Assembly (NCBI RefSeq): GCF_004118375.1
Contig: NZ_SDHX01000001.1
Coordinates: 558,001 to 622,000, forward strand
Origin: Oleiharenicola lentus
Lineage (GTDB): Bacteria; Verrucomicrobiota; Verrucomicrobiia; Opitutales; Opitutaceae
Direction of reading: 5' to 3'
DNA length: 64,000 nucleotides
Part shown: in pieces, positions 2,499 through 25,789 of the stretch
Layout of the letters: each line of letters starts with the position of its first letter
How positions within the stretch are numbered: position 1 is the stretch's first letter
Program-made: the position numbers and the translations under genes
Notes under the pieces: generated by a model
The model's input: only the letters and a program-made list of their open reading frames with translations
Told to the model about the DNA's origin: nothing
Databases searched by the model: none

Positions 2499-5400
2499 AT
2501 GAGCGAATCCGGCAAAGCCGTCTTCCTCTCCTACGCCTCGCAGGATGCCGAGGCGGCGAAGAGGATTTGCGAGGCGCTCCGCGCGGCCGGAGTCGAGGTC
2601 TGGTTCGACCAGAACGAACTGGTGGGTGGCGATGCGTGGGACCAGAAGATCCGCAAGCAGATCGGCTCTTGCGCACTCTTTGTGCCGATCATCTCCGCCA
2701 ACACGCAGGCGCGGGCGGAAGGGTATTTCCGGCTGGAGTGGCGGCTGGCGGACAAGCGCACCGAGCTGATGGGCAAGTCCAAGGCCTTCCTCTTGCCCGT
2801 GAGCATCGACGATACGCGCGACAGCGAGGCCGACGTGCCGGATTCCTTCCTCGCCGTGCAATGGACCAAGCTGCGGGGTGGGGAAGCAACGCCTGCCTTC
2901 GTGGCGCGCGTGCAGAAGCTGCTCGACGGCGGGACAAGCTCCCGCGAGTCCGCCTCGCGCCCGCCCCTGCCTGAATGGGAGGTGGGACGCCCCCGTCCTG
3001 CACAGCGTGCACGCTGGCCCTGGATCGCGGGCGCGCTCGCCGTGCTCGCAGCCGGCTACGTGGTGTTCACCACCCTGCGCCGTCCGCCGGGCGACGCCGC
3101 GCCGGCCCTCAACTCTCCGGAAGGAACGCCGCAGAAGTCCGCCGCGCCCGCCGTTCTTGACCTCAAGGTTGCCGAGGCACGGGCGTTGATCGCGAAGGCG
3201 CTGCCCTTGCATGAAAATTTGGGCGGGGCCACGCGCAGCGATTTCGAACTCGCGGGTGACCTGTTCAAGCGCGCCCTCGAACTTGCCCCGCTCGATGCGG
3301 AGGTGTGGGCGCACTATTCGTGGTTCTGCATGAATTTTTCCGGCATCGGTTTGGATCGCACACCCGAGCGGGAGGCCGAGGCCAAGCGGGCGGCGGACCG
3401 GGCCTACAAACTTGATCCGGCTCTGCCGATGGCCCGGATGGCTTGGGCCAACTATTATCGCCGGCAGGAGACTACCCGACCCGAGGCCATCCGGATCCTG
3501 GCGGCCTTGGCCGAAGAACAGCCCCAAAACAGCAGCGTCCTGCGAATCTATGCCCTCGCGCTGGATGCGGCCGGCCGGGCTGAGGAAGCTCGCCAGGCCT
3601 ACGAACGCGCCACCGCCACTCCCGGCGGCGATGCCCGCGCGTGGGCGCAGTTGGGCGACTGGCATTACCGGCATGGCGACCCTGCCGCCGCCTGGACGGC
3701 CTACCAGCGCTCCCTCGAGGTCAAGCCGGTGCCCCGGGTGTTGCTTGGGGTGGCGCGACTGCAGATGTCCGAGTTGGGCGATCTGGCCGCCGCCCAGCTA
3801 ACACTGCAGCGGGTGCCCGGCGAGTTCATGCAGGAGGAACAAGCGATTGGCACCGCGGCGGTCCTTGCGCTTTGGCAGCGCAAGCCCGAGGAAGTCCTGC
3901 GGCTGCTCAGTGCCTTTCCGCGCGATTACCTCGAAGCGGGTAATTATCGGAATTTGTCCGCGGCGAAATCGACTCTCATCGGCATGGCCCAATGGCTCGC
4001 GGGCAAGCCGGATCTCGCCCGGCTCGAATGGGCCGAGGCGCTGCGCGTGATTGAGCGGCGGCTGGAGACCCGGCGATCCGTGTTGGAACTGCACTGGGAC
4101 CGCACCCTGTTGCTCGCCATGCTGGGGCGGAAGTCCGAGGCCGAGGCGGCGCTCAAGCTCTACCTGCAGGTGCGGCTGGGAAGTTCGGTCCCGGCCAATC
4201 CCACCGACTCCCCGCTCAAGGCCCTGATCCATGCGTGGTCGGGCGAATTGGACGCGGCTTTCGCCGCCCTGGGTGACAGGAAGGTCACCCCTTGGTTGCG
4301 CTACAGTCCCGAGTGGGAGCCGCTGCGGGCCGATCCCCGTTTTCAGGCGCTGCTAGCAAAAGCAGACGCATCCGCCGCCGCTTCTCCCTCCGCCCCGCTC
4401 CTTGCTCCCCCGAGTCCACCGCCGGTGGACTCGAAGTCCATCGCCGTGCTGCCGTTCGCCAATCACAGCGACGACAAGGAGAGTGGTTATTTCGCCGACG
4501 GGGTGCATGAGGATGTGCTGACCAACCTGGCGAAGATCTCCCAACTCAAGGTCATCGCCCGCACCTCGGTCATGGAGTATCGCGCCACCACGAAGAAGAT
4601 CCCACAGATCGCCCGGGAGCTCGGTGTGGCCTACCTGCTTGAGGGCAGCGTGCGGCGTGCGGGCAATCGGGTGCGGGTGGTCTGCCAGCTGATCGATGGG
4701 CGCACGGGCCAACACGTCCTCGCACCCGATCCCTTCGACCGGGATCTCGCCGACATCTTTGCCATCCAGTCCGAAATCGCCCAGGGTATCGCGGCCAAGC
4801 TGCAGGCGGTCCTGGCCCCGACCGAAAAAGCGACGTTGGAGCGCGCGCCCACCGCCAATCTCGTGGCTTACGAACTTTATCTTCAAGCCCGGGAAATCTG
4901 GGATCGGTCACCCGATCAACGAGCCGGAGAGGAACAAGCGCGACCCTTCCTGGAACGAGCGGTGCGGCTCGACCCGAACTTCGCCATGGCGTGGCAGGGA
5001 TTGGGTTATCTCCATCTCCGCGCTTATTTTCGTTACGACCAGAGCGAATCCCGGCGCCTTTTGGCCAAGCACGCGATTGAGAAAGCCCGCGAATTGGACC
5101 CCCGGGACGGCGTGATTTTCGCGCTGCAGACCAACTACTGCATCGACGTGCGGGATCTGCCCCGGGCGAGGCAGCTGGCGGCCCAGCTCGAACGCGAGCA
5201 TCCGTCCCTCGCGGTGACCTGGCACGTGCTGGCCCGGCTGAGCATCCGCGATGACAACATTCGCGCCGCTCTGGAGTATTACCGTCGGGCGCGAAGCCTG
5301 GATCCGCGCAACGTGGCGGTCTTGGAATCACTGACGACATCCCTGGCCACCGCCCGGCGCTACGAAGAGGTGCAGGTCGTGCTGCGCGACGCCGGGGATT

Positions 5401-6071
5401 TGGTGGAAAAAGCGACGCAGTTGTTGTGGAGCCGCACCGTTCTGCCCTATTACGCAACCGGCTCCACCCGCGAGATGGATGAATTGGCCGGTCGGCTGGC
5501 TCCCGACGCGGCCCGGGGTGACGCCCGGGCGCTCTCTCTGTTGACCGGCTTCGCCAGTATTCGGGGGGATGCGGCGGAACTCGTCCGTCTTTGGGAACAG
5601 CATGGCTCGACGATCACGGTGTCGGGCGGCGATGGAACCTTCACCGTGGCCGTGGCCTTGCTCATTCAGGGTCAGCCCGAGCGCGCCCGGATCCTGTTGG
5701 AGAAGGAACGGGCCCGCTACCGGGAGCGATTGGCCTCCCGCCCCGACAACATCGAGAATTGGTTCTATCTGGCCGCGACGCACGCTGTGTTGGGCGACAA
5801 AGAAGGCACCGCCGCCGTGAAACGCGAAATGCTGGCCGCCAATCCGGGACTGACCCGGCGGGGGCTGTGGCGCTACGAGGAATGCATGCTCTTCGCCTGG
5901 CTGGGCGACAAGGACGCCGCTCTCGCCGACCTCGCCGAAAGACTCGACGAGGGTCCCGCGCCTGGAGCCACCATCGTCCTGCGTTGCGGGTTGCGTTTCC
6001 GGCCCCTGCAGGGCGACCCGCGCTTCGAGGCAATGCTAGCCGATCCCAAAAACAACGCCCCTTTCTTCTGA
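2499..6071 (+). CDS. TIR-TM-TPR-TolB-like-TPR membrane protein
   Basis: 1190 residues. A TIR domain spans residues 6-142 (opening FLSYASQDAEAA). E80, in YFRLEWRLA, sits where the catalytic glutamate of NAD-cleaving TIR domains is expected. One transmembrane helix (about 173-193) follows a Pro-rich linker, so TIR is probably cytoplasmic and the rest periplasmic. TPR-like repeats fill about 225-620, a TolB-like module about 644-772 (KSIAVLPFANHSDDKES), and more TPRs run to the C-terminus. A GGAG ribosome-binding site seven bases before ATG 2499 supports the start. The stop overlaps the next gene's ATG by one base, so the two are probably co-translated. TIR proteins in bacteria are often immune NADases, but no phage-defence partner is visible. 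NADase activity is untested inference. Confidence 0.88.
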   Translation: MSESGKAVFLSYASQDAEAAKRICEALRAAGVEVWFDQNELVGGDAWDQKIRKQIGSCALFVPIISANTQARAEGYFRLEWRLADKRTELMGKSKAFLLPVSIDDTRDSEADVPDSFLAVQWTKLRGGEATPAFVARVQKLLDGGTSSRESASRPPLPEWEVGRPRPAQRARWPWIAGALAVLAAGYVVFTTLRRPPGDAAPALNSPEGTPQKSAAPAVLDLKVAEARALIAKALPLHENLGGATRSDFELAGDLFKRALELAPLDAEVWAHYSWFCMNFSGIGLDRTPEREAEAKRAADRAYKLDPALPMARMAWANYYRRQETTRPEAIRILAALAEEQPQNSSVLRIYALALDAAGRAEEARQAYERATATPGGDARAWAQLGDWHYRHGDPAAAWTAYQRSLEVKPVPRVLLGVARLQMSELGDLAAAQLTLQRVPGEFMQEEQAIGTAAVLALWQRKPEEVLRLLSAFPRDYLEAGNYRNLSAAKSTLIGMAQWLAGKPDLARLEWAEALRVIERRLETRRSVLELHWDRTLLLAMLGRKSEAEAALKLYLQVRLGSSVPANPTDSPLKALIHAWSGELDAAFAALGDRKVTPWLRYSPEWEPLRADPRFQALLAKADASAAASPSAPLLAPPSPPPVDSKSIAVLPFANHSDDKESGYFADGVHEDVLTNLAKISQLKVIARTSVMEYRATTKKIPQIARELGVAYLLEGSVRRAGNRVRVVCQLIDGRTGQHVLAPDPFDRDLADIFAIQSEIAQGIAAKLQAVLAPTEKATLERAPTANLVAYELYLQAREIWDRSPDQRAGEEQARPFLERAVRLDPNFAMAWQGLGYLHLRAYFRYDQSESRRLLAKHAIEKARELDPRDGVIFALQTNYCIDVRDLPRARQLAAQLEREHPSLAVTWHVLARLSIRDDNIRAALEYYRRARSLDPRNVAVLESLTTSLATARRYEEVQVVLRDAGDLVEKATQLLWSRTVLPYYATGSTREMDELAGRLAPDAARGDARALSLLTGFASIRGDAAELVRLWEQHGSTITVSGGDGTFTVAVALLIQGQPERARILLEKERARYRERLASRPDNIENWFYLAATHAVLGDKEGTAAVKREMLAANPGLTRRGLWRYEECMLFAWLGDKDAALADLAERLDEGPAPGATIVLRCGLRFRPLQGDPRFEAMLADPKNNAPFF
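2973..3005. repeat. palindromic repeat inside coding sequence (TIR-TM linker)
   Basis: The linker between the TIR domain and the membrane helix contains a near-palindrome with core GGGACGCCCCCGTCC. The same core lies at the same place in the next paralogue (6516-6534). It encodes the residues GRPRPA. The sequence looks like a dispersed repeat that is tolerated in frame. Confidence 0.5.
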
Positions 6072-9000
6072 TGAGCGACTCCCCCAAAGCCATTTTCCTC
6101 TCCTATGCCTCCCAAGACGCCGAGGCGGCGCAGCGGATTTGCGAGGCGCTGCGCGCCGCCGGGCTGGAGGTGTGGTTCGACCGCAACGAGCTGGTCGGGG
6201 GCGACGTGTGGGATCAGAAGATCCGCAAGCAGATCAAGGAGTGCGCGCTGTTCGTGCCGATCATCTCGGCGAACACCAACGCCCGGGCCGAAGGCTATTT
6301 CCGGTTGGAGTGGAAACTCGCCGTGGACCGCTCGCACCTGATGGCGGATGACCAGCCTTTCCTCTTTCCCATCGTGGTCGGCGATGTGAACGACGCCACG
6401 GCCCGCGTGCCCGACAAATTCCGCGAAGTGCAGTGGACGCGCCTGCGGCTCGACGAAACGCCCGCCGAGCTGGCCGCACGGGTGACGAAACTCTTGAGTG
6501 GGGAGGCCTTGGAGGCGGGACGCCCCCGTCCCGCAGACCGGGGCGAGGCGGCGTTCGGAGAACCCGCCCTACAGCGCAAGAACCGCAAGCGCGAGCGCCC
6601 CGTCTGGTTGCGGCACGCGTGGTCGGTGCTGGCCCTGGCGATTGTGGGCTACTACGCCCTGCGGCCCCTTTGGCGCGAGCGCCGGTCCGAACCGGAAACC
6701 GTGTCCGTTGCGCCGGCTTCACCCGTGGTCGCGGCGCCCAAACCTTCCGAAGCCCACGAACTCGTGACCAAGGCCCGGGCCCTGTTTGTCAACCGGCTCG
6801 ACACGACGCGCGACGATTGCGCTCTGGCCGAGGACCTGCTCAAGCAGGCGCTGGCAAAGGATCCGGCGGACTCCGAAGCTTGGGCCGCGACTTCGCATCT
6901 GCATGCTTACGTGCTCCTGCGCCGCTGGGACAACTCCGACGTCCGGCGCGAATCGGCCCGGCAGGCGGCGCAGCGGGCGGTCCGGCTCGACGCTCAATCC
7001 TTCGAGGCCCGGCTGGCCTACGCCTTTATGCTCGGCGACACCGAGGCAGAGGGCGCGGAGAAGGAACGGCTGTTGCGGTCGCTCCGCGGTGAGCAGCCGA
7101 AGGACCAGCGCCTGCTGCGGGCGTTGGCGCAAACCCTCAACCGGCTGGGCCGAATTGACGAGGCCACCACCTTGCTCGATGAATCGGCCGCCCTGCCCGG
7201 GGGTGATGCTCTGGCCCTCTACGACAAGAGCTTAAATTTTTGGTTCGCGGGCCGGACCGTGGAGGCCGAAGCGGCGATACAGGCCTCGCTGGCGCAGAGA
7301 CCGTTCACCGGGGCGCAGCTGATTGCGGCGTGGTATGCCGTGGATTTGCACGGTGATCTGGCGGGCGCACGGGCGCTTCTAGCGCGGATTCCACCGGCGG
7401 AGATGCAGGAGGACAGGGCGGCCTTCTTTGCCTACTACGTGGAAAAGCTGGCGCGCCAGCCCGACGCGGCGATCGCCCGGTTGCAGGCGGTGCCCCGGGA
7501 CTGGCTCGACGACGCCTGGTATCGTGGACCCAAGGCCCGGCTGGTCGGCGACGTCCTGCACGCCGCACGCCGGCCGGCCGCCGCCGCCGGGGAATGGCGC
7601 TTGGCGCTCAGGCAGGTGGACGAGCGGCTGGAGGCCAATCCCACCGAGGCCGGGTTGCTCATCCATCGCGCCCAATTGCTCGCGCGTCTGGGTGAAAAGC
7701 AGGAGGCTCTCCGGCTCCTGGGCACGCTGAGCGAACGCTATAGTATCGATCCGGTGGGTGACGTGCCCGTGTGGGTGACCAACCTCAATTCATGGCTCGG
7801 GCGCAAACAGGACGCCCTCGCACAGATCTCCCGCGCTTTGAAAAGCGACCGGCGCGCGGTGAATTATACCGCGGCTTCACTGCGGCTTGATCCTTCGTTT
7901 GATCCCCTGCGGGAGGAGCCAGGATTCGCCGCGCTCATCGCCGAGGCGGATAGGATCGAGCAGGCGGCGGCCCTCGCCGCCCGCCCGACCCGCGACTGGC
8001 CGAAGAATCCGGAGCTCAAGCGGGCCATCGCGCTCATCGAGGGCCTGGACGCGATTCCCGACGACCTCGCCCTCGCCGAGCAGATCGTGAAGCCGATCGT
8101 CGAGCGGTCGCCCACTGATCTGGAGGCGGTGACCGTGATGGCGCGCGTGCAGGCCCAGTTCATGCGCCGCGGCTTCGACCGGAGCGATGAACGTTCCGCC
8201 CAGGCCCGGCTTTATGGCGAACGCGCCTTGCAGCTCGATCCCAACGAGCCCGAGGCCATGTTCGCGGTGGCGACCTATCTTTTCAGCCGGGCCACGGGCG
8301 ATACCCGCGCCGAGCGGCTGCTGCGGCGGGCCATGGAGGTTGATCCCGCCAATCCGCGGCCCGGCCGGATGCTGGCGGATTTGCTGAACGTGATTCCAAG
8401 CCGCCGCGCGGAGGCCATCGTCCAATCGCAGGAAAACGTCCGGCGCTTCCCGAATGACGCGCTGACGCGCTACGATCTGGCCCGGCACTACAAGGACCAG
8501 GGGCGCTACGAGGAATCCGACCGGGAGCTGGACGCGACCCTGGCCCTGGCCCCGCTGCCCAATGCCATCGCGTGGAAGGCACGCTTCCAGTTCGGTCTGC
8601 GCAACGATCTCGCGGGCATGAAGCGCTGGCTCGACCAGGTGCCCGAGCGGGTGCGCGGCACCGAGCGCGCGGTGTTCGGCTACTTTCTCTACGCGGCCTT
8701 CGGCGGGGATGCGGAGACGGGCCTGGCGGCGCTGCGGTCGTTCACGCTGAAATGGTTCACGGATTTCGAGTATGCCGGCCCGACCGCCCTGCTGAATGCC
8801 TGCCTGTTGGAGCGGCAGGGGAAAACCGAGCTGGCGCGTCAGCAATATGAGGCGGCCCTGCTGGAAGCCCAGCGCATGAAGGTGACCGATCCGACCCGGA
8901 TCTGGCTCAACCACGCGGAATTCTGGCCCCTGCTCGGGCTCGGAAGAAAGGAGGAGGCCAAGCTGCTCTTCCAGCGTCTGATCGAGGCCCAGGCCAGGCC

Positions 9001-9223
9001 CTATTCACAAAGCTTGGTCAACGGCTGGTGGTTCACGCTGATTCCCGGTGCGCTGTTGCTGGGGGAGCGGGATACGGCGCTGGAACTCCTGCGCGAGTCG
9101 GTCGCCACCCTCCCGGAAAGCCGGGCGTCCTTCCGCGTGCGTTTCCAGCTCGACCCGCGCATGGCGCCGTTCCGCGACGACCCGGAAATCCAGGCGATCC
9201 TGGCGGAGCCGGGGGTGAAGTAA
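6071..9223 (+). CDS. TIR-TM-TPR-TPR membrane protein
   Basis: 1050 residues from ATG 6071, which overlaps the upstream stop (TGATG). An in-frame extension to 5591 runs inside the previous gene and is discarded. The TIR domain (6-142) is almost identical to that of the neighbour over the first 80 residues, with E80 kept in YFRLEWKLA. This suggests recent duplication or gene conversion. A membrane helix lies at about 181-199. Unlike its neighbours it has no TolB-like module. After a first TPR block (about 225-640) a second independent TPR block follows (about 655-1045). The linker at 148-168 is repeat-derived. Likely the last gene of the paralogous operon. Function unknown; a membrane-anchored TIR scaffold or sensor is the best inference. 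Confidence 0.87.
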   Translation: MSDSPKAIFLSYASQDAEAAQRICEALRAAGLEVWFDRNELVGGDVWDQKIRKQIKECALFVPIISANTNARAEGYFRLEWKLAVDRSHLMADDQPFLFPIVVGDVNDATARVPDKFREVQWTRLRLDETPAELAARVTKLLSGEALEAGRPRPADRGEAAFGEPALQRKNRKRERPVWLRHAWSVLALAIVGYYALRPLWRERRSEPETVSVAPASPVVAAPKPSEAHELVTKARALFVNRLDTTRDDCALAEDLLKQALAKDPADSEAWAATSHLHAYVLLRRWDNSDVRRESARQAAQRAVRLDAQSFEARLAYAFMLGDTEAEGAEKERLLRSLRGEQPKDQRLLRALAQTLNRLGRIDEATTLLDESAALPGGDALALYDKSLNFWFAGRTVEAEAAIQASLAQRPFTGAQLIAAWYAVDLHGDLAGARALLARIPPAEMQEDRAAFFAYYVEKLARQPDAAIARLQAVPRDWLDDAWYRGPKARLVGDVLHAARRPAAAAGEWRLALRQVDERLEANPTEAGLLIHRAQLLARLGEKQEALRLLGTLSERYSIDPVGDVPVWVTNLNSWLGRKQDALAQISRALKSDRRAVNYTAASLRLDPSFDPLREEPGFAALIAEADRIEQAAALAARPTRDWPKNPELKRAIALIEGLDAIPDDLALAEQIVKPIVERSPTDLEAVTVMARVQAQFMRRGFDRSDERSAQARLYGERALQLDPNEPEAMFAVATYLFSRATGDTRAERLLRRAMEVDPANPRPGRMLADLLNVIPSRRAEAIVQSQENVRRFPNDALTRYDLARHYKDQGRYEESDRELDATLALAPLPNAIAWKARFQFGLRNDLAGMKRWLDQVPERVRGTERAVFGYFLYAAFGGDAETGLAALRSFTLKWFTDFEYAGPTALLNACLLERQGKTELARQQYEAALLEAQRMKVTDPTRIWLNHAEFWPLLGLGRKEEAKLLFQRLIEAQARPYSQSLVNGWWFTLIPGALLLGERDTALELLRESVATLPESRASFRVRFQLDPRMAPFRDDPEIQAILAEPGVK
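6510..6575. repeat. palindromic repeat inside coding sequence (TIR-TM linker)
   Basis: A perfect inverted repeat at 6516-6534 has arms GCGGGACG and CGTCCCGC around CCC. It is followed by further GC-rich repeat-like sequence ending AACCCGCCCTACAG. It encodes the segment between TIR and the membrane helix and is a fuller version of the element in the upstream paralogue. Confidence 0.55.
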
Positions 9224-16938: not shown

Positions 16939-16942
16939 CGTT

Positions 16943-16961
16943 TGTAACGTAATACGTTACA
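16943..16961. promoter_or_regulatory. perfect 9-1-9 palindrome, candidate operator of the ECF/GH67 cluster
   Basis: The sequence is TGTAACGTA, a central A, then TACGTTACA. It lies 100 bases before the ECF sigma gene and just after the previous stop. The odd-centred GTnnnAC core is the pattern typical of FadR-type GntR regulators. Another pair of palindromes at 31366 and 31486 shares the CGTAATACG centre. The assignment as an operator is inference. Confidence 0.55.
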
Positions 16962-17060
16962 TGTCTTCGGAGCGGTCGAAATTCCCATTAATGGATTTGG
17001 CAGGGAGGAGTGTCGTAATAGATTGAATCCGCATCAGGGTTCCCTCCATCGCGATATCCC

Positions 17061-17603
17061 ATGCCTCCGCCTGATCCGGAAATTGCCCGTTGGTTTGCCG
17101 AGGAAGTGCAGCCGCACGAGGCGGCGCTGCGGGCATGGCTGCGCAGCCGGTTTCCCACGCTCAAGGATGCGGACGACCTCGTGCAGGAATCCTACACCCG
17201 GCTGCTCAGGACGCGGAGAACCGGTTCCATCGCCTGCGCCCGGGCCTTCCTTTTTGTCACGGCGCGCAACCTGGCGCTGAACCAGTTGCGCCACCTGCGC
17301 CACGAACGGCCCGAGGGGATCACTGAATTGGACGCCTCGGGGGTCTTGGATGAGCGCACGGCAATCCCAGAATCGGTGGCCCGTGCCGAGGATCTCCAGC
17401 TTTTGATCCATGCCATCCAAGCCCTGCCCGACCGCTGCCGTCAGATCATGACGCTGCGGAAGATCTACGGCTTTTCCCAGCGGGAAGTTGCCCAGCGGCT
17501 TCATATTTCCGAGCACACGGTTGAGGCGCAGGGAGCCATCGGTCTCCGCAAGTGCATCGAGTATTTTCGACGCAACGGTTACAGTCGTGGCTTTCGCCCA
17601 TGA
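17061..17603 (+). CDS. ECF RNA polymerase sigma factor (FecI-like)
   Basis: 180 residues with only regions 2 and 4. Region 2 contains DADDLVQESYTRLL and ARAFLFVTARNLALNQ. Region 4 is a helix-turn-helix with GFSQREVAQRLHISEHTVEA. It directs RNA polymerase to promoters of a small regulon and is normally held inactive by the FecR protein encoded next. The stop overlaps the fecR-like start (ATGA), so the pair is translationally coupled. With the STN-bearing TonB receptor downstream this forms a cell-surface signalling set of FecI/FecR type. Confidence 0.93.
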   Translation: MPPPDPEIARWFAEEVQPHEAALRAWLRSRFPTLKDADDLVQESYTRLLRTRRTGSIACARAFLFVTARNLALNQLRHLRHERPEGITELDASGVLDERTAIPESVARAEDLQLLIHAIQALPDRCRQIMTLRKIYGFSQREVAQRLHISEHTVEAQGAIGLRKCIEYFRRNGYSRGFRP

Positions 17604-18637
17604 GCACCGATTTTCCATCTCCCGAAGGAGCCGACCCGGTTGCCCAAGCAGCTGCCGAGTGGGTTTTGCGTCATGACCGCGGCTTGGCTGCGGTCGAGCA
17701 GGATGAGTTTTCCCAGTGGCTAGCGGCCGATCCGCACCACAGCTCCGCCTGGGCCGAGCATCGCTGGGGATGGGAAGAATTCGACCGGCTGGCTGGCTTG
17801 CAGACCTCGATGCATGCCGTGTCCGATCCCAATCTGCTTGTTTCGCAACGCCGCGTGGCGCCGCACGCTCGGATGGCGGTGGCGCTGGCAGCGGTGGTCG
17901 TGGTGGCGGTCGGAGCTTTGCTCTATTTCCGTCCTGTCCTGACCGAGGCGCCACCGGAACCGACGCCGGTCAGTTCACTCGCCCTCATCGAGCAGCGTGA
18001 GCTGCCGGACGGCTCGGTCGCAGTATTGAACAGGGGAGCCATCGTTACGGAGCACTACTCTGTCGGGACGCGGCGCGTGCGGCTTGAGCGGGGTGAGGCT
18101 CATTTCAAGGTGGCCAAGGACAGCGCGCGTCCATTTCTGGTTGAGATCGGAGGGGTGACTGTGCGGGCGGTCGGCACGGCCTTCAATGTCCGGCTCGATC
18201 CGGCTTCAGTCGAAGTGTTGGTGACCGAAGGGAAAGTGGATGTGCAACACCGGAACCCCGCGGGCGTGCATCGCGAGGAACTGCTCAATCTCTCGGTGGG
18301 GGAGCGCACAGTCGTCTCGTTGGCCCCGGCACCCCCTCCTCCGCAAGTGGCGGTCGTGCCGCCAGCGGAAATCGAGGCCCGGCTGGCTTGGCAACCGCGC
18401 CTACTGGACTTCACCAACGCGCCACTGTCGGAGATCGTGGCCGAGTTCAACCGGCGCAACCCGGTGCGCCTGTCCTTGCGCGATCCTGCGTTACGAGGGA
18501 TGCGGCTCAGTACAACCTTCCGCTCCGACAATGTCGAGGGCTTTGTCCGCCTGCTGAGGTCGGATTTCGACGTCAATGTCGAATGGCGAGGTGATGGTGA
18601 CATCATCCTGAGCTTGGTGAATCAGGATGGCCGTTGA
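17600..18637 (+). CDS. FecR family anti-sigma / transmembrane signal regulator
   Basis: 345 residues from ATG 17600, overlapping the sigma gene stop by four bases; this start fits the family better than an upstream in-frame start at 17552. The N-terminal cytoplasmic part has the FecR-typical sequence AAAEWVLRHDRG and a Trp-rich stretch (WAEHRWGWEEFDRL). A membrane helix lies at about 90-113. The periplasmic FecR domain (LPDGSVAVLNRGA, VRLERGEAHFKV) follows, and the C-terminal DUF4974/STN-like segment (LLDFTNAPLSEIVAEFNRRN) ends the protein. It should receive the signal from the TonB receptor and control the ECF sigma factor. Confidence 0.92.
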   Translation: MSTDFPSPEGADPVAQAAAEWVLRHDRGLAAVEQDEFSQWLAADPHHSSAWAEHRWGWEEFDRLAGLQTSMHAVSDPNLLVSQRRVAPHARMAVALAAVVVVAVGALLYFRPVLTEAPPEPTPVSSLALIEQRELPDGSVAVLNRGAIVTEHYSVGTRRVRLERGEAHFKVAKDSARPFLVEIGGVTVRAVGTAFNVRLDPASVEVLVTEGKVDVQHRNPAGVHREELLNLSVGERTVVSLAPAPPPPQVAVVPPAEIEARLAWQPRLLDFTNAPLSEIVAEFNRRNPVRLSLRDPALRGMRLSTTFRSDNVEGFVRLLRSDFDVNVEWRGDGDIILSLVNQDGR

Positions 18638-18725
18638 ACGTTCGGTGGACCCCAATCCTGTGGCTTGTGCGGGCCAGTCGTCATCAGTCCCTTTTTTCGC
18701 CACACCTCCCAACTCTTGCGTCTCA

Positions 18726-20876
18726 ATGCGTCCGATCTTCTGCCTGCTTGTATCCTCCCTCCTCCTTCCCCTCTTGCTCCGCGCCGACGACGGTTACCGC
18801 CTCTGGCTGCGCTACGACCCCATCCCTGATGCGTCGCTGCGCCAAGCCTACACCGGCGCCATCTCCGAGATCGTCATCCCCGAGAACCCGCGCCCGCTCG
18901 TCGCCTCCGCGCGCGATGAGCTCGTCGCGGGCCTCCGCGGTCTGCTCGGGGCCGACATCCCGGTCGTCACCAAGGCCACGCGCGACAACGCCCTCATCCT
19001 CGGCATCCCGCGCGACCCGTGGATCGCTGCCGTCGTCAACGAGGCCGATCTGCGCGAAGCCGGTGTCGAGGGCTACGTGCTCCGCCGCATCGCCCACGAG
19101 GGCGGCCACCGCACGCTCATCGTCGCCAACCGCGATTCCGGCCTGCTCTACGGCGCCTTCGCCCTGCTCCGCCATCTCCAGTCGCACCAGTCGCTCGACA
19201 ACCTGAACGTCATCAGCGCGCCGAAGATCCAGCGCCGCCTCCTCAACCACTGGGACGACATGAACCGCCACGTGGAGCGTGGCTACGCCGGCTTCTCGCT
19301 CTGGGAATGGTTCTACCTGCCCGAGATCCGCGACCCGCGCTACCGCGACTACGCCCGCGCCCTCGCCTCAATCGGCCTCAACGGCACGGTCATCACCAAC
19401 GTCAACGCCAACGCACAGATCCTCACCGCGCCCTACCTCGCCAAGGTCGCCGCGCTCGCGCAGGAGTTCCGTCCGTGGGGCGTCCGCATCTACCTCACCG
19501 CCCGCTTCAGCGCGCCCATCGAGATCGGCGGGCTCAAGACCGCCGACCCGCTCGACCCCGCCGTCGCCGCCTGGTGGCAGGGAAAGGTCGCCGAGATCTA
19601 CCGCACCATCCCCGACTTCGGCGGTTTCCTCGTGAAGGCCAACTCCGAGGGCCAGCCCGGCCCGCAGGATTACAAGCGCACGCACGCCGACGGCGCCAAC
19701 ATGCTCGCCGACGCCGTGCAGCCCTACAACGGCATCGTGATGTGGCGCGCCTTCGTCTATTCGCCCGACAACAACGACGACCGCGTGAAGCAGGCCGTCA
19801 CCGAGTTCGCCCCGCTCGACGGCAAGTTCCGCCAGAACGTCATCGTGCAGATCAAGAACGGTCCGCTCGACTTCATGCCGCGCGAACCCTTCTCGCCGCT
19901 CTTCGGCGCGATGCCCAACACCCGCCTCGCCGCCGAGTTGCAGATCACGCAGGAATACCTCGGCCAGTCCATCGACCTCGCCTTCCTCGCCCCGATGTGG
20001 CGCGAGGTCCTCGACGCCGACACCTATGCGAACGGCAAGGGCACGACCATCGCCTCCATCGTGGACGGCTCCGCCAAGCTTCAGCACCCGTCCGTCATCG
20101 CCGGCGTCGCCAACACCGGCACCGACCGCAACTGGACCGGCCACCTGCTCGCGCAGGCCAACTGGTATGCCTTCGGCCGCCTCGCGTGGGACCACCAGCT
20201 CTCCTCCGAGAAAATCGCCGACGAGTGGACGCGCCTGACTTTCGGTCACGACGACACCGCTGTCTCGACCATCAACAAGATGCTCCTTGGCTCGCGCGAG
20301 ACCGTCGTGAATTACTCGATGCCGCTCGGCCTGACGCACATTATGGCCGAAGGCCACCATTACGGACCCGGTCCGTGGGTGGACAAGCTCGGCCGCGCCG
20401 ACTGGACCTCCGTTTATTATCACAAGGCCGACGAGAAAGGCCTCGGCTTCGACCGCACCGCCACCGGCTCCAACGCCCTCGCCCAATACGCGCCCGAATG
20501 GCAGAAACTCTGGGGCAATGTCGAGACCTGCCCCGAGAACCTCCTGCTCTGGTTTCACCACGTGTCGTGGGACCACAAGATGAAGTCAGGTCGCACGCTC
20601 TGGGATGAACTCTGCCTCCGCTACCAGCAGGGCGTGGACGAGGTTCGCGCGCTCCGCCGCGACTGGGATTCGCTCAAGGGCCGCATCGACGAAGAACGCT
20701 TCACGCACGTCGCGCAGCGCCTCGCCCGCCAGGAGAAGGAGGCCATCAACTGGCGCGACTCATGCCTGCTCTACTTCCAGCAGTTCTCTAAGCGCCCGCT
20801 CCCCACCGGCGTCGAACCCGCCACTCACCCGCTCGAACACTACAAGCAGATCCTGCGCAACATGCCCGGTTTCTGA
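18726..20876 (+). CDS. alpha-glucuronidase, GH67, secreted
   Basis: 716 residues from ATG 18726, which opens a signal peptide (MRPIFCLLVSSLLLPLLLRA, then DDG). A longer frame from 18627 would hide this and overlap fecR. GH67 enzymes remove 4-O-methyl-D-glucuronic acid from the non-reducing end of xylo-oligosaccharides. Diagnostic motifs are GFLVKANSEGQPGPQ (about 298-312; its Glu probably belongs to the catalytic set), GIVMWRAFVY and LWFHHVSWDHKM near the C-terminus. Length and three-part layout (N-terminal alpha/beta, TIM barrel, helical C-terminus) match the family. Its place between FecR and a TonB receptor makes glucuronoxylan fragments the likely inducer and substrate. The signal peptide suggests periplasmic action. 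Confidence 0.95.
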   Translation: MRPIFCLLVSSLLLPLLLRADDGYRLWLRYDPIPDASLRQAYTGAISEIVIPENPRPLVASARDELVAGLRGLLGADIPVVTKATRDNALILGIPRDPWIAAVVNEADLREAGVEGYVLRRIAHEGGHRTLIVANRDSGLLYGAFALLRHLQSHQSLDNLNVISAPKIQRRLLNHWDDMNRHVERGYAGFSLWEWFYLPEIRDPRYRDYARALASIGLNGTVITNVNANAQILTAPYLAKVAALAQEFRPWGVRIYLTARFSAPIEIGGLKTADPLDPAVAAWWQGKVAEIYRTIPDFGGFLVKANSEGQPGPQDYKRTHADGANMLADAVQPYNGIVMWRAFVYSPDNNDDRVKQAVTEFAPLDGKFRQNVIVQIKNGPLDFMPREPFSPLFGAMPNTRLAAELQITQEYLGQSIDLAFLAPMWREVLDADTYANGKGTTIASIVDGSAKLQHPSVIAGVANTGTDRNWTGHLLAQANWYAFGRLAWDHQLSSEKIADEWTRLTFGHDDTAVSTINKMLLGSRETVVNYSMPLGLTHIMAEGHHYGPGPWVDKLGRADWTSVYYHKADEKGLGFDRTATGSNALAQYAPEWQKLWGNVETCPENLLLWFHHVSWDHKMKSGRTLWDELCLRYQQGVDEVRALRRDWDSLKGRIDEERFTHVAQRLARQEKEAINWRDSCLLYFQQFSKRPLPTGVEPATHPLEHYKQILRNMPGF

Positions 20877-20913
20877 CCGCATGTTCCGCAGCATCGGCCC
20901 GAATGCCTTAGAA

Positions 20914-21050
20914 CGCGTCTAAAAAGCCTCCTGAGTTTGTCATTCTGAGCCGGGCGAAGAATCCATCAGGAGTATCGCCCCCCTGAAAACGCCTCGTTAA
21001 TCCAACTGGATTCTTCGCTACGCTCAGAATGACAGACCTTTTTGGACGCC
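20914..21050. repeat. long intergenic inverted repeat (TGTCATTCTGAGC type)
   Basis: Both arms carry GCGTC(T/C)AAAAAG, TGTCATTCTGAGC and CGAAGAATCCA in opposite orientation. The core TGTCATTCTGAGC...GAAGAATCC is a repeat seen across many unrelated bacteria. It fills most of the gap between the GH67 and TonB receptor genes and could form a long mRNA hairpin. Confidence 0.8.
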
Positions 21051-21058
21051 CTCTTAGC

Positions 21059-21086
21059 GGAAAGAACCCCGTGAGGTTTCTCTATA
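21059..21086 (+). promoter_or_regulatory. possible ECF-type promoter of the TonB receptor gene
   Basis: GGAAAG (21059-21064) resembles the GGAAAT -35 box recognised by FecI, and TCTATA lies 16 bases downstream, about 23 bases before the ATG. The match is weak and unsupported by other copies in the window. Confidence 0.25.
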
Positions 21087-21108
21087 GTGTAACCCCACCT
21101 TAATCCCC

Positions 21109-23670
21109 ATGCGTGCCATCTCGGCGTATATTCATCTCCCCCACAACTTCGTTCGGATAATCATCGTTGCACTGCTGCTGGTCGTGACCGCGGCAGGCGC
21201 TGATAGCGGTAGGAAGCACTTCGATCTGCCGGGGGGGGCGGCACCGGATATACTCAAGAGCTTTGCGAAACAGGCCGGACATGAGATCATGTTCTCAGAC
21301 GAAGTGGTCGGCTCCGTAAAGACCAACACGGTGAAGGGCGAGTTCACTCCGAAGGAAGCCTTGGACCTGCTGCTGGCCGACACTGGACTGATCGCGTCGC
21401 AGGACACGAGGACAGGGGCCTTTGCGGTGAGGCGCGGGATGCCTAACCCGAATGCCGACCCAAACGGGGCAAGGGTGGCGTCAACCAGAAGCCAGGACGA
21501 CCGCCCCGTTGAAACCAGTGGTTCGAAGGCGAAGGACGATATCGTGGTGCTTTCACCCTTCGAGGTGCGGGCGAGCGAGGACAAGGGTTATCATGCCGCC
21601 AACTCGGTCAGCGCGACGCGCGTCGCCGTGCAGATCAAGGATCTGCCGATGAACATCACCGCGCTGACCGACGAGTTCATCCGGGACCAGACGAGCTACG
21701 ATCTCTACGACGTCGTGAAGTGGGCCGGCGTCCATCAGGACAACGTCTCGCAGAGCGGGTGGGTGCGCTGGAACCTGCGCGGTTTCACCAACACCGCCAT
21801 CCAGCGCAACGGCATCACCACAAACTTTCGCTTCCTTGATCCCGCCAACATTGAGCGCGTCGAAATCGTGAACGGGCCGGCCTCGCTGCTCTACGGACAG
21901 TTGAATCCCGGTGGCATCATCAACTACATCACCAAACGGCCGCACCACAAGGCGGAGACCTCCCTCAGCGTTGCCGGCGGCAGCCACGCCTACAACCGGT
22001 TCCTGTTGGACACGACTGGCCCGCTGCCGGGCACAGATGGCAAGCTGCTCTACCGCGCGGTGGCGATGCGGGAAAACATCTCGCGCTTCTCCCAACTTGC
22101 CAAGGGGCACAAGCAGACGCTGGCCGCCGCCATGACCTGGCGCCCGACCCCGCGGATCACCTTCAATGCCGAGTTCGAGGAATTCCGCCGTGACGAGCCG
22201 AACACCCCCAGCTCGCTACTCATCGTCTACGTGAATGGCGTGGCCACGCTGCCTTATCCCGGTTTGCCTCGCAATTTCAGCTTCACCGGGCTTGGTGACT
22301 GGCAGGAATACGCCAGTCGCGCGTTCTCCGCCGACATGTCCGTCGCCCTCACCGAGGACATCCAACTCCGGGTCGCGTTCGAGCAGAGCAAGTTCCGGCA
22401 GGAGGATCGCATCACCGGGCAGGCTGGCACCGGTATCCTGTCACAAGCGGTCATTGATCAGTTTTATCCCCCGGGCACGCTTACGCCCAAGGATGCAATG
22501 TTCCGCCGCAACCGTTACGATCTGCAGGACGGCGACGAGCGCACCGGCCAGGTTGAACTCACTGGCAAGTTCCACCTCGGCGGCGTCCGCCTCACCCCCC
22601 TCATTGGCTACCGCAAGAACTTCCACACGGACACGCGGAATATTTTCAAAACCAACACGACCCTCGCGCCGTGGGACATGCGCAACCCGGCCACTTGGAA
22701 CCGCATCGTGCCGTTCGGTCTGGATGCGCTCAACCTGAACTCCGACAGCAGCAGCTTTGCGGACAACGACTCCTATTATACGGTGCTGACCGCCGCGGCG
22801 TTCGATGAGCGGCTGCAAGTGCTCGCCGGCTACGGACGCTACAACGTCCACAGCTCGCCGGCCCGCAACAACATCACCGGTGTGCTGACTTCGCCGGACA
22901 GCAGCCGCTCCGCCAACGTGCCCCAGCTAGGAGCGCTGGTGCGGCTCACGCCGGGGGTTTCCGCTTTCGTTTCCTACAGCGAGTCTTTTCTCGCCAATAC
23001 GGCGTTCCTGCGCGTCAACAGTGATGTGCGCACCGTCCCGGCCAAACCCTCGGTTGGCAAGGGCTATGAGGGTGGTTTCAAGGTGGAGTTGCTCGACGGT
23101 CGCGTCTCGGGCACCGTCACTTACTTTTCCACCAAGGCGAACCCCACCGCCGTGTTCGAGGTTTTCGGTGGCACCGCGCCCGACGGCCGCATGCTTTTCA
23201 CGGACGTGCAGGGCGGATCCCAGAGAAGCAGCGGCATCGATGCTAACATGTTGTTGACGGTGGCCCCCGGAGCCCAGGTCTACATCAATTACAACCGCAT
23301 CAAGGCCGTCTATGCAGAGCACCCCACCAATGCAGCCTTCAATGGCACCCGCTTGGTGGGCACGCCCGATGAGTCCTTCAACATCTGGGGCAAATACACG
23401 TTCGATGGCGGCGCGCTGAAGGGGTTCTTCTTCGGCGGCGGCGTCAGCTACGTGGGCAGCTTCGTCAGCCAAGCGAGCAATCCCGTTGTCAGCCGCATGC
23501 CGGGCTACACGACGTTTGACGCCATGGTCGGCACCAGTTTCACCGTCTTCCAGCATCCGTGGAAGGTGGACCTAACTGTGCGCAACGTCGGCGACAAGTT
23601 CTACTACGCCTCCGCCTCCAGCTTCGGCTCTCCCCGCCATGGCGTCGTCACGCTCAGCACCAAGTTCTGA
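21109..23670 (+). CDS. TonB-dependent outer-membrane receptor with STN signalling domain
   Basis: 853 residues. The N-terminus has a signal sequence ending near TAAGA. An STN (secretin and TonB N-terminal) domain at about 37-106 includes DILKSFAKQAGHEIMFSDEV and the ALDLLLADTGL helix. The plug domain (about 165-275) contains NLRGFTNTAIQRNG, IERVEIVNGPASLLYGQ and NPGGIINYITKRP. A beta-barrel follows and ends with the usual C-terminal Phe. STN domains contact FecR-type proteins, so this is a transducer as well as a transporter. Given the GH67 neighbour, uptake of glucuronoxylo-oligosaccharides is the best inference; a siderophore ligand cannot be excluded. Confidence 0.92.
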   Translation: MRAISAYIHLPHNFVRIIIVALLLVVTAAGADSGRKHFDLPGGAAPDILKSFAKQAGHEIMFSDEVVGSVKTNTVKGEFTPKEALDLLLADTGLIASQDTRTGAFAVRRGMPNPNADPNGARVASTRSQDDRPVETSGSKAKDDIVVLSPFEVRASEDKGYHAANSVSATRVAVQIKDLPMNITALTDEFIRDQTSYDLYDVVKWAGVHQDNVSQSGWVRWNLRGFTNTAIQRNGITTNFRFLDPANIERVEIVNGPASLLYGQLNPGGIINYITKRPHHKAETSLSVAGGSHAYNRFLLDTTGPLPGTDGKLLYRAVAMRENISRFSQLAKGHKQTLAAAMTWRPTPRITFNAEFEEFRRDEPNTPSSLLIVYVNGVATLPYPGLPRNFSFTGLGDWQEYASRAFSADMSVALTEDIQLRVAFEQSKFRQEDRITGQAGTGILSQAVIDQFYPPGTLTPKDAMFRRNRYDLQDGDERTGQVELTGKFHLGGVRLTPLIGYRKNFHTDTRNIFKTNTTLAPWDMRNPATWNRIVPFGLDALNLNSDSSSFADNDSYYTVLTAAAFDERLQVLAGYGRYNVHSSPARNNITGVLTSPDSSRSANVPQLGALVRLTPGVSAFVSYSESFLANTAFLRVNSDVRTVPAKPSVGKGYEGGFKVELLDGRVSGTVTYFSTKANPTAVFEVFGGTAPDGRMLFTDVQGGSQRSSGIDANMLLTVAPGAQVYINYNRIKAVYAEHPTNAAFNGTRLVGTPDESFNIWGKYTFDGGALKGFFFGGGVSYVGSFVSQASNPVVSRMPGYTTFDAMVGTSFTVFQHPWKVDLTVRNVGDKFYYASASSFGSPRHGVVTLSTKF

Positions 23671-23671
23671 C

Positions 23672-25789
23672 GTGAAAGCAACCACAGCCACCCGGTCCGG
23701 TTTGGGCTTGCTGGGGAGCCTGCTGCTGGTGGCCGGGCTGACCGCCGCGGTCCCACGGGTCGCCGATCGAGACGTGCAAGCCATTGCAGACGGCTTTGCG
23801 GGCCGCCGGCTCGTGGCATTGGAAAGCATAATCCATGCGGAGCCCCCCGACAACCTGGGCGGCGGTTTTTTGGCGGACCAGATCAAGGCTCTCGCCCTGT
23901 TGCGGCAAGCCGAGCTGACCGGTGACCATACGCACGTGCCGGAGGCAAACGAGTTGCTGCTGCGATTTTGCCGCCAACTCGAGCAGCCCAACTGGTGGGG
24001 TCGGATTAACCATGGCGGCGGTCTGTTCGCGATGCGCGCGCTGATCACCTACGGTAACCGCCCCGACCTCCTCTTCCCGGCCACGGTCGCAAAGCTGCGC
24101 GATGGGCGTGAACCAGACGGACGTGTCATCCCCGGGCAATCCCTGAGGCACTTCCTGCCCGAGACCTGTTTCAACCGTCATATCCGCATCGGTCTCTACA
24201 CGTGGCCGAAACCGTTCGAGGGAGCGGTGGGATACACCGAGAATCACCGACTGCAATACATGGTGCACGCCCTGTTGCTGTGCCAGATCTATGGTGACGA
24301 AACCTATACCCCGCCTGATGGTCCGCCCGCACCCCTGCGCAGCAAGCAGCCCGGGCAGCGGGATTTCTACGGCTATTGGCGGCAGGCCTTCTACGAATAC
24401 CTCATCGGCTACCGGAAACCCCAAATCCCGATCGAGCCTTGGCAGTTCGAGGAATTCCGCCATTTCGACTGGGGCGTGACGGAGAAGGACGGGGCCACCT
24501 ACTTGCACGTTTTTCTCGGTGATTTCTGGTTCCTGCGCGACCTTTCCGACGACCCTGTGCTGCGGACATACTGCGAAATGTTCATCGACCTCCTCCTTGC
24601 CGACTACGCTGAGGAAGCAATCCGCGGCGTCTATGCGGGGGCGCATGAGAACTCCGAGAAGCACACGAACCGCCTGCCGGGCCTCATGCACATTTTCAAC
24701 CATCTGCTTTTTGACGACCTGCCCTACGTGCCCGCCGGACACGAATATTACGAGTGGGGAGCGTGGTCCTACCTGTCCTTGCTCACCACCGAATATCATC
24801 CCGGGCACCCCGACTTTCCCAAGGTGCTGATCGACTTGGCGGTAAACAAGCCCCGCGAGGGGTATCTTGTGCGCGAGGCGATCGCCGAGACCCGCGACGG
24901 ACTACCGGGCAAACCGAAGGCGACTTGGGTCATGCCCGACCATGCACTCGGATTTGGAATCAAATCGTGGAACGGATGGGGCTACCACGCGGGAGGCGCC
25001 TATGTGGCCACACCGGGCGCGAAACTCGGCGACGTCGGGCTGGCCGTGATTCCCTTTGGTCTCAGTGACAACAACCAGTTCGACCTCAAATACAGCCTGA
25101 TCTGCCCCATGCAGAGCGTGGTCGGGCGCGGGGCAGCCATCACCCAGAATGGCGTCGACCAGTTGCCCTCCAAGATATGGATCAAAGACGGCTTCACGGA
25201 AGATTTCCAATCCTTCCCTCCGTGGCTGTTCTTCTCCGCCCGCTCAAGCATCGGTCGCGAGGTATATCTTGCGATCCGCCCCGTCTTGGGCGGTTGGCAA
25301 GCTGATACGCCCCGGCAGCCTGGCACCACTATCCTCCAGTTCCGGGTGGCGCCGGGGGAAAGGCTGCCGGAGCTGGCCCACTCGAAGGTCCCGGCCGAGG
25401 GCTTGGGCCGGATCATCCGGTTCGAGCAGGCTTCCGACTTCCTCGTCTGGGAAATGGCCGACTCGGACCGCTTCACGTCTTTCGATGACTTCAAGCGCTC
25501 CGTCGTGGCGGCCTCCCTGTCGGTCGATGCCGAATCGGTCTCCTACACTTCGACCGCGGGCGAAAAATTGCGGTTTGATCGTTATGATTTCCGCCGGCAC
25601 AGCGTGGACGGAAGGGTGATCGATTACGACGAATACCGTTACGTGATCCACAATCCGTGGGTGACTTGGCGCCAAGGAGCCAAGCGGGCCCGGATCGAAC
25701 GCGGCGCGCGGGCGGCGGAATACGACTTCAATCCGGACGACTCCGGCATCTTTGTCGACCGCATGCCGGCCAAGACTGTTCGGCAATAG
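23672..25789 (+). CDS. secreted protein of unknown function in the xylan cluster
   Basis: 705 residues from GTG 23672, one base after the receptor stop. This start yields a signal peptide with hydrophobic core GLGLLGSLLLVAGLTAA; an earlier in-frame start at 23639 would overlap the receptor. The N-terminal two thirds is helix-rich with Trp/His/Tyr patches (NWWGRINHGGGLFAMRAL, HENSEKHTNRLPGLMHIFNH), suggestive of an (alpha/alpha) toroid as in polysaccharide lyases and unsaturated-glucuronyl hydrolases. The C-terminal third looks beta-rich. I do not recognise a family. Tight coupling to the receptor gene suggests it acts on the same glycan. Confidence 0.85.
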   Translation: MKATTATRSGLGLLGSLLLVAGLTAAVPRVADRDVQAIADGFAGRRLVALESIIHAEPPDNLGGGFLADQIKALALLRQAELTGDHTHVPEANELLLRFCRQLEQPNWWGRINHGGGLFAMRALITYGNRPDLLFPATVAKLRDGREPDGRVIPGQSLRHFLPETCFNRHIRIGLYTWPKPFEGAVGYTENHRLQYMVHALLLCQIYGDETYTPPDGPPAPLRSKQPGQRDFYGYWRQAFYEYLIGYRKPQIPIEPWQFEEFRHFDWGVTEKDGATYLHVFLGDFWFLRDLSDDPVLRTYCEMFIDLLLADYAEEAIRGVYAGAHENSEKHTNRLPGLMHIFNHLLFDDLPYVPAGHEYYEWGAWSYLSLLTTEYHPGHPDFPKVLIDLAVNKPREGYLVREAIAETRDGLPGKPKATWVMPDHALGFGIKSWNGWGYHAGGAYVATPGAKLGDVGLAVIPFGLSDNNQFDLKYSLICPMQSVVGRGAAITQNGVDQLPSKIWIKDGFTEDFQSFPPWLFFSARSSIGREVYLAIRPVLGGWQADTPRQPGTTILQFRVAPGERLPELAHSKVPAEGLGRIIRFEQASDFLVWEMADSDRFTSFDDFKRSVVAASLSVDAESVSYTSTAGEKLRFDRYDFRRHSVDGRVIDYDEYRYVIHNPWVTWRQGAKRARIERGARAAEYDFNPDDSGIFVDRMPAKTVRQ

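Follow-up and report, generated by a model that had tools for sequence, protein, structure and literature searches.

A stretch of 64,000 nucleotides from Oleiharenicola lentus (Verrucomicrobiota, Opitutaceae; contig NZ_SDHX01000001.1, positions 558,001 to 622,000 of the forward strand), referred to here as the window, harbors five genes at 17061–25789 that encode, in order, an extracytoplasmic function (ECF) sigma factor, a FecR-like anti-sigma factor, a secreted GH67 alpha-glucuronidase, a TonB-dependent receptor with an N-terminal STN signalling domain, and a secreted protein of no Pfam family (P5). All five are on the + strand, and the glycosidase gene sits between those of FecR and the receptor, as a preliminary description of this DNA had stated. 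The set is a known kind of Fec-type sensing module in an unusual variant, in that its secreted partner is rare and a GH67 gene has most likely been inserted into it. Probably, the sigma factor, FecR, the receptor, and P5 form a four-gene Fec-type module that senses an oligosaccharide of the plant cell wall; the GH67 gene, which is the host's own, would be a later insertion between fecR and the receptor gene.

The closest relative of the module is found on contig PLMW01000059.1 of an Opitutia metagenome-assembled genome (G123; L078 and L154), where the sigma, FecR, receptor, and P5 genes (179, 210, 1255, and 1046 bits, respectively) occur in the same order without GH67; the only GH67 match of that genome is on a different contig (L079). 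GH67 is matched in 66 of the 252 genomes of the family. At the matched places covered by the fetched stretches or the window, phmmer finds GH67 in 76 loci, window included; a 24-bit match (L153) is outside this set and is not found by phmmer. With a profile built from seven FecR sequences, FecR is detected near GH67 in a single one of the 76 loci, which is the window itself.

The neighbourhoods of 14 receptor relatives (identity 48% and less, one at 50%) afford a second view. FecR is encoded directly 5′ of the receptor in six of them (L159, L160, L167, L170, L175, and L176), while neither GH67 nor P5 is present in any of the 14 fetched stretches. Pfam confirms FecR in L159, L167, L175, and L176, whose FecR sequences were themselves part of the profile; the FecR fragment of L160 has no Pfam match but matches the profile. 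L159, L175, and L176 have an STN match at E ≤ 0.001, whereas L160 and L167 have none.

The GH67 gene (18726–20876, 716 residues from the likely start, in a frame open from 18627) encodes an apparently intact enzyme. All three GH67 domains are recognized by Pfam (E 3e-23 to 2e-147), and the solved alpha-glucuronidase 1gqi aligns over nearly the full length (E 8.6e-250). The motifs SEGQPG (340), GPLDF (412), and QITQEY (439), numbered in the frame from 18627, are intact, including E341, D415, and E443, which we take to be the catalytic residues. A signal peptide was recognized by eye. A second copy, 90% identical, is located about 175 kb away (L074, C1:751–764 kb) in a xylan locus that comprises a LacI-type gene, an AP_endonuc_2 xylose-isomerase-type protein, GH52, an MFS_2 transporter, two GH8, GH67, and GH43. 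By Pfam, GH67 is the sole gene for glucuronoxylan utilization among the five at 17061–25789; genes of the xylanase, xylosidase, or transporter kind sit in L074.

A phylogeny of 69 GH67 proteins places the copy in the window in one clade with the L074 copy and those of two same-genus genomes (88–89% identical), with a Shimodaira–Hasegawa-like approximate likelihood ratio support of 100. The nearest relative of the receptor belongs to another genus, at 71% identity. DNA likeness to other GH67 loci is confined to 18738–20869, within the coding region. By identity and tree position, the window GH67 is a recent paralogue of the GH67 in the LacI-flanked xylan locus. The third-position GC content is 0.908 for GH67, 0.740 for the sigma gene, 0.717 for fecR, 0.771 for P5, and 0.814 for the receptor; 56 called genes from three stretches of the same genome, these five included, average 0.848 (standard deviation 0.070). 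On these values GH67 looks native, and FecR, the sigma factor, and P5 look less so; the receptor is within one standard deviation of the genome's own genes.

Taken together, the GH67-less relative, the adjacency of FecR and receptor elsewhere, the paralogy, and the single FecR among 76 GH67 loci indicate that GH67 was most likely inserted into an existing sigma–FecR–receptor–P5 module. The notion of the preliminary description that GH67 is integral to the set is not supported, given the same observations, the lack of GH67 in the 14 receptor neighbourhoods, and a hairpin that follows the gene (see below).

Several points weigh against an insertion. The P5 module is held by two genomes only, so the choice between insertion and loss rests on parsimony from distant receptor relatives. 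In eight of the 14 receptor neighbourhoods, FecR is absent from the stretch that was fetched, and in 28 of the 76 GH67 loci one flank or both are shorter than 4 kb. Near other GH67 genes, sigma-like matches (23–33 bits) lie at distances of 1.3 kb (L134), 4.7 kb (L135), and 6.3 kb (L074), and L074 also has a receptor and a sigma gene some kb from its GH67. The differences in composition amount to 0.5 (receptor) to 1.9 (FecR) standard deviations.

The signalling genes themselves are well defined. The sigma factor (17061–17603, 180 residues) is FecI-like and contains ECF regions 2 and 4 (Pfam Sigma70_r2 and r4_2); the NCBIfam sigma70-ECF superfamily model scores above its cut-off, and the FecI equivalogs score below theirs. 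The ATG of fecR (17600–18637, 345 residues) overlaps the sigma stop codon (ATGA). Its product harbors an N-terminal DUF4880 domain, FecR, and FecR_C (24.5 bits against a cut-off of 24.4), as well as one hydrophobic segment, a 19-mer at residue 108 of the frame counted from 17552. The receptor (21109–23670, 853 residues) has plug and beta-barrel domains, and its STN match of 23.3 bits is under the curated Pfam cut-off of 28.4 (matches at E 5.7e-5 and 1.5e-5, with 23.3 and 27.5 bits). STN is also found independently in the receptor relative of PLMW01000059.1 (26.6 bits).

The genome carries 48 plug-bearing receptors, three FecR genes, and three STN matches at E ≤ 0.001, two of which are in receptors. 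The STN receptors, that of the window and one at C1:1.22 Mb (L075), are the very two that directly follow a FecR gene, a pairing expected once in 1128 cases if two of the 48 receptors are labelled at random. The second set is a sigma–FecR–receptor arrangement without GH67. FecR is matched in 236 of the 252 family genomes, and the signalling set as such is therefore ordinary. By its domains and by this pairing of STN with FecR, the set in the window is a genuine Fec-type cell-surface-signalling set, for which ligand-dependent transcription by the sigma factor is predicted.

By analogy with the Fec and Fox systems, a ligand at the receptor would alter how the STN domain touches FecR on the periplasmic side. 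Processing of the anti-sigma factor would then free the sigma factor, which would transcribe the receptor and P5 genes as one unit, the likely P5 start being one base 3′ of the receptor stop codon. GH67 would probably be read with fecI and fecR, from which it is separated by an 88 bp gap with no terminator-like site, and a strong hairpin would set it apart from the receptor gene. The likely transcription units are thus sigma–FecR–GH67 and receptor–P5.

The hairpin belongs to the gap 20877–21108, which folds at −86.2 kcal/mol (z −7.7). Within it, positions 20935–21037 form a very stable palindrome whose inverted arms, about 29 bp each, match almost perfectly. It resembles repetitive extragenic palindromes and miniature inverted-repeat transposable elements and is dispersed, with 91 matches in the genome, many of which are two arms or two strands of one element. 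A terminator scan returns four terminator-like sites (6.9 in shuffles), all outside the two gaps that flank GH67; it omits the hairpin of 20877–21108. A sigma-70 scan returns one promoter-like site, at 16997–17024 upstream of the sigma gene, and 1.9 in shuffles. Comparison of the fecR–receptor gaps letter by letter across loci demonstrates no shared promoter; the similar gap stretches in L160, L175, and L176 look coding. In E. coli, fecIR is not autoregulated (PMC9249621), and a position behind fecR thus does not by itself place a gene under the control of FecI.

Upstream of the sigma gene, a perfect 19-bp inverted repeat (9-1-9), TGTAACGTAATACGTTACA, occupies 16943–16961; the preliminary description had placed the start of the set at its first base. 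It is the sole match in the window, where 0.03 are expected with up to three mismatches, and three of 100 shuffles contain such a 9-1-9 palindrome at the same tolerance. The fetched loci, 2.26 Mb with overlaps counted, contain it nowhere else (a row in L014 is the same place). The repeat is a candidate operator of the first transcription unit. Two identities were considered for it and rejected. It has no close likeness to a Fur box (it agrees with the Fur consensus of E. coli at 8 of 18 letters), and no site within six mismatches of that consensus, which may not be this phylum's, occurs in 16939–17060. As an operator of the xylan LacI it fails in that the half-site dyad is absent from L074 and six other GH67 loci scanned.

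A rather unlikely alternative, close to what the preliminary description proposed, is that aldouronic acids from glucuronoxylan bind the receptor and the sigma factor activates GH67 jointly with the receptor and P5, GH67 having been recruited to serve the system. The gene is co-directional inside the module and close behind fecR with no terminator-like site there, its motifs are intact, and xylan genes recur beside the module in that the G123 copy abuts a xylose-isomerase remnant. However, the core module occurs without GH67, the hairpin lies between GH67 and the receptor, the xylan locus of the other GH67 has its own LacI-type gene, and a chimera with the same neighbours has been published (PMC4855328). 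Of the FecI/FecR/STN signalling scheme first put forward, the Fec-type set is real and its surroundings favour carbohydrate over iron; the parts that are not supported are GH67 as an integral component, glucuronoxylan as the signal, and control of GH67 by the set.

For the four-gene module, a carbohydrate ligand is well more likely than iron, judging from the GH67 in the window, two sugar genes in G123, and P5 relatives beside plant-polysaccharide enzymes. Directly behind P5, G123 has a xylose-isomerase remnant of 51 residues, 80% identical to the xylose-isomerase-type protein of L074, and an MFS_2 sugar transporter. The transporter was not taken to prove a connection with xylan: its highest-scoring matches are outside GH67 loci (45–48% identity), whereas by identity its nearest are two copies in GH67 loci of its own genus (51%). 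Score and identity thus disagree, leaving the transporter type ambiguous, which detracts from the carbohydrate case. Xylan is possible as the sensed substrate, and a glucuronoxylan call, itself possible, depends chiefly on GH67, a neighbour that probably joined the set late. The neighbours of the receptor relatives (GH2 in L167 and L168, a SASA esterase in L166) were set aside as a substrate guide, being too mixed.

One of these neighbourhoods contains an unusual gene. In L166, a single frame at 7256–8563 (− strand) encodes ECF sigma regions 2 and 4 together with a TonB C-terminal domain, a sigma–TonB fusion that adjoins a 44% relative of the window receptor. A single-sequence search covering part of the fetched loci detects the fusion only in L166 and the overlapping L158.

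P5 (23672–25789, + strand, likely GTG start, in a frame open from the ATG at 23639) has a hydrophobic N-terminal leader, recognized by eye, and matches no Pfam or NCBIfam family at E ≤ 0.1. Close relatives are rare. Two peptide patterns searched in a genome contig collection gave 90 matches, one of which was confirmed; high-similarity matches occur in two of the 252 family genomes, the own genome counted; and at 1e-15 the own genome is the one match among 387 genomes of the phylum, a sample that did not list G123. At E ≤ 0.001, relatives are found in 106 of the 252 family genomes. These P5-like proteins (L207–L216) are a widespread, Pfam-less family of roughly 600–650 residues, and none of 17 members is matched by Pfam at E ≤ 0.05.

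Ten neighbourhoods of P5-like genes were retrieved; the scan covered ten genes in four of these. Alpha-L-rhamnosidases are encoded in L211 and L214, GH127, GH43, and an arabinofuranosidase in L211, and GH38 in L213; L207 has a solute symporter only. A BNR-repeat protein adjoins the P5-like gene in one of the four. From such neighbours, the P5-like proteins are a candidate new carbohydrate-active family.

The fold of P5 was approached by modelling. A full-length model from a two-row alignment is poor (predicted local distance difference test score, pLDDT, 43), and its best Foldseek match, a chondroitinase (E 0.015, probability 0.92), is a hint only. The N-terminal half reaches a pLDDT of 57 and a predicted template-modelling score of 0.67; Foldseek with this half finds nothing at E ≤ 0.001. 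VIA on the same weak model returns toroid lyases and hydrolases and a few other folds at Z 8–11, led by a chondroitinase (11.0) and two alginate lyases (10.6 and 10.2), values that, being under about 13 for a helical model, may reflect only a common arrangement. An Asn–His pair (202–203) and Tyr288, numbered from 23639, are invariant in 17 sequences of the P5 family, and Protein Data Bank titles name mutants in neighbouring Asn and His, or Tyr, of toroid lyases. A P5 profile matches none of 24 PF05426 proteins (of 30 loci), and a profile search of the Protein Data Bank up to E 10 gives no match. With a weak model and no PF05426 profile match, an assignment to the (alpha/alpha)-toroid lyases is not claimed; on the models, the rare P5 is perhaps such a lyase.

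A bolder proposal, to which we give little credence, is that the sigma–FecR–receptor–P5 module would be a mobile cassette for sensing uronic-acid glycans, one that settles next to genes of xylan breakdown (GH67 in the window, the xylose-isomerase remnant in G123), and P5 would found a new family of (alpha/alpha)-toroid lyases or hydrolases that makes or presents the signal at the receptor.

It is improbable that the set is an iron system in which a ferric siderophore is sensed, GH67 is a bystander, and P5 is iron-related or unrelated. The receptor does resemble siderophore receptors by profile, which counts against a carbohydrate ligand: its matches among solved structures are mostly siderophore or haem receptors, and its best NCBIfam model is that of a TonB-dependent siderophore receptor, although below the cut-off. 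FecI/FecR with a transducer receptor is, moreover, an iron system in most cases (PMC1790865). Yet none of the five genes is an iron gene by Pfam, P5 relatives accompany plant-polysaccharide enzymes, and no Fur-like site was found upstream of the sigma gene at the tolerance given above, with an E. coli consensus that may not be the host's. A decaying, horizontally acquired cassette that has lost signalling and carries GH67 just as a spare copy would fit the lower third-position GC of the sigma gene, fecR, and P5, the patchy occurrence, and the operon split by GH67 and a repeat element, but is very improbable with all five reading frames open and their domains complete.

Elsewhere in the window, 2499–6068 and 6071–9220 encode tandem related proteins with an N-terminal TIR domain and TPR repeats.

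Signalling by FecIR is usually interpreted in terms of iron, and substrates of such sets are commonly assigned from the genes next to them. Since the most telling neighbour here, GH67, is probably a later addition, substrate calls made naively can be misleading; the sensed ligand and the control of GH67 are not readable from gene order alone. Judged by titles and the beginnings of abstracts among results listed in part, no such system is described for Verrucomicrobia or Opitutaceae with FecR, and, judged likewise by titles and abstract beginnings, the arrangement is not described in the papers listed for GH67 or alpha-glucuronidase with FecR or an anti-sigma factor. The comparison isolates a compact module of four genes, its secreted partner uncharacterised, which could be tested for glycan sensing in Verrucomicrobiota.

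Among known systems, FecIRA and FoxIRA of E. coli and Pseudomonas share with the window the ECF sigma factor, the FecR-type anti-sigma factor (DUF4880, FecR, FecR_C), and the STN receptor in this order. In contrast to them, the window has GH67 between anti-sigma factor and receptor, and the receptor gene is followed by that of a Pfam-less secreted protein rather than by fecBCDE. In Bacteroidota, ECF-sigma/anti-sigma pairs control TonB-dependent glycan transporters (PMC10766802). The logic is the same in the window, whose five genes, however, lack SusD, include a receptor of siderophore-type profile, and belong to another phylum. The own xylan locus L074 shares a GH67 at 90% identity but differs in its LacI-type gene, GH52, GH8, GH43, and MFS_2, and has no FecR. 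A published parallel in gene content is polysaccharide utilization locus (PUL) 70 of B. xylanisolvens (PMC4855328), in which a GH67 core beside an ECF-sigma/anti-sigma pair and SusC/D was first called one locus and then recognized, from expression, a regulator mutant, and synteny, as a chimera in which a xylan core adjoins a locus unrelated to it. As in the window, GH67 adjoins an ECF-sigma/anti-sigma pair and a TonB-type (SusC) receptor; the two units were shown there by expression and synteny, while here synteny, phylogeny, and composition alone point to them.

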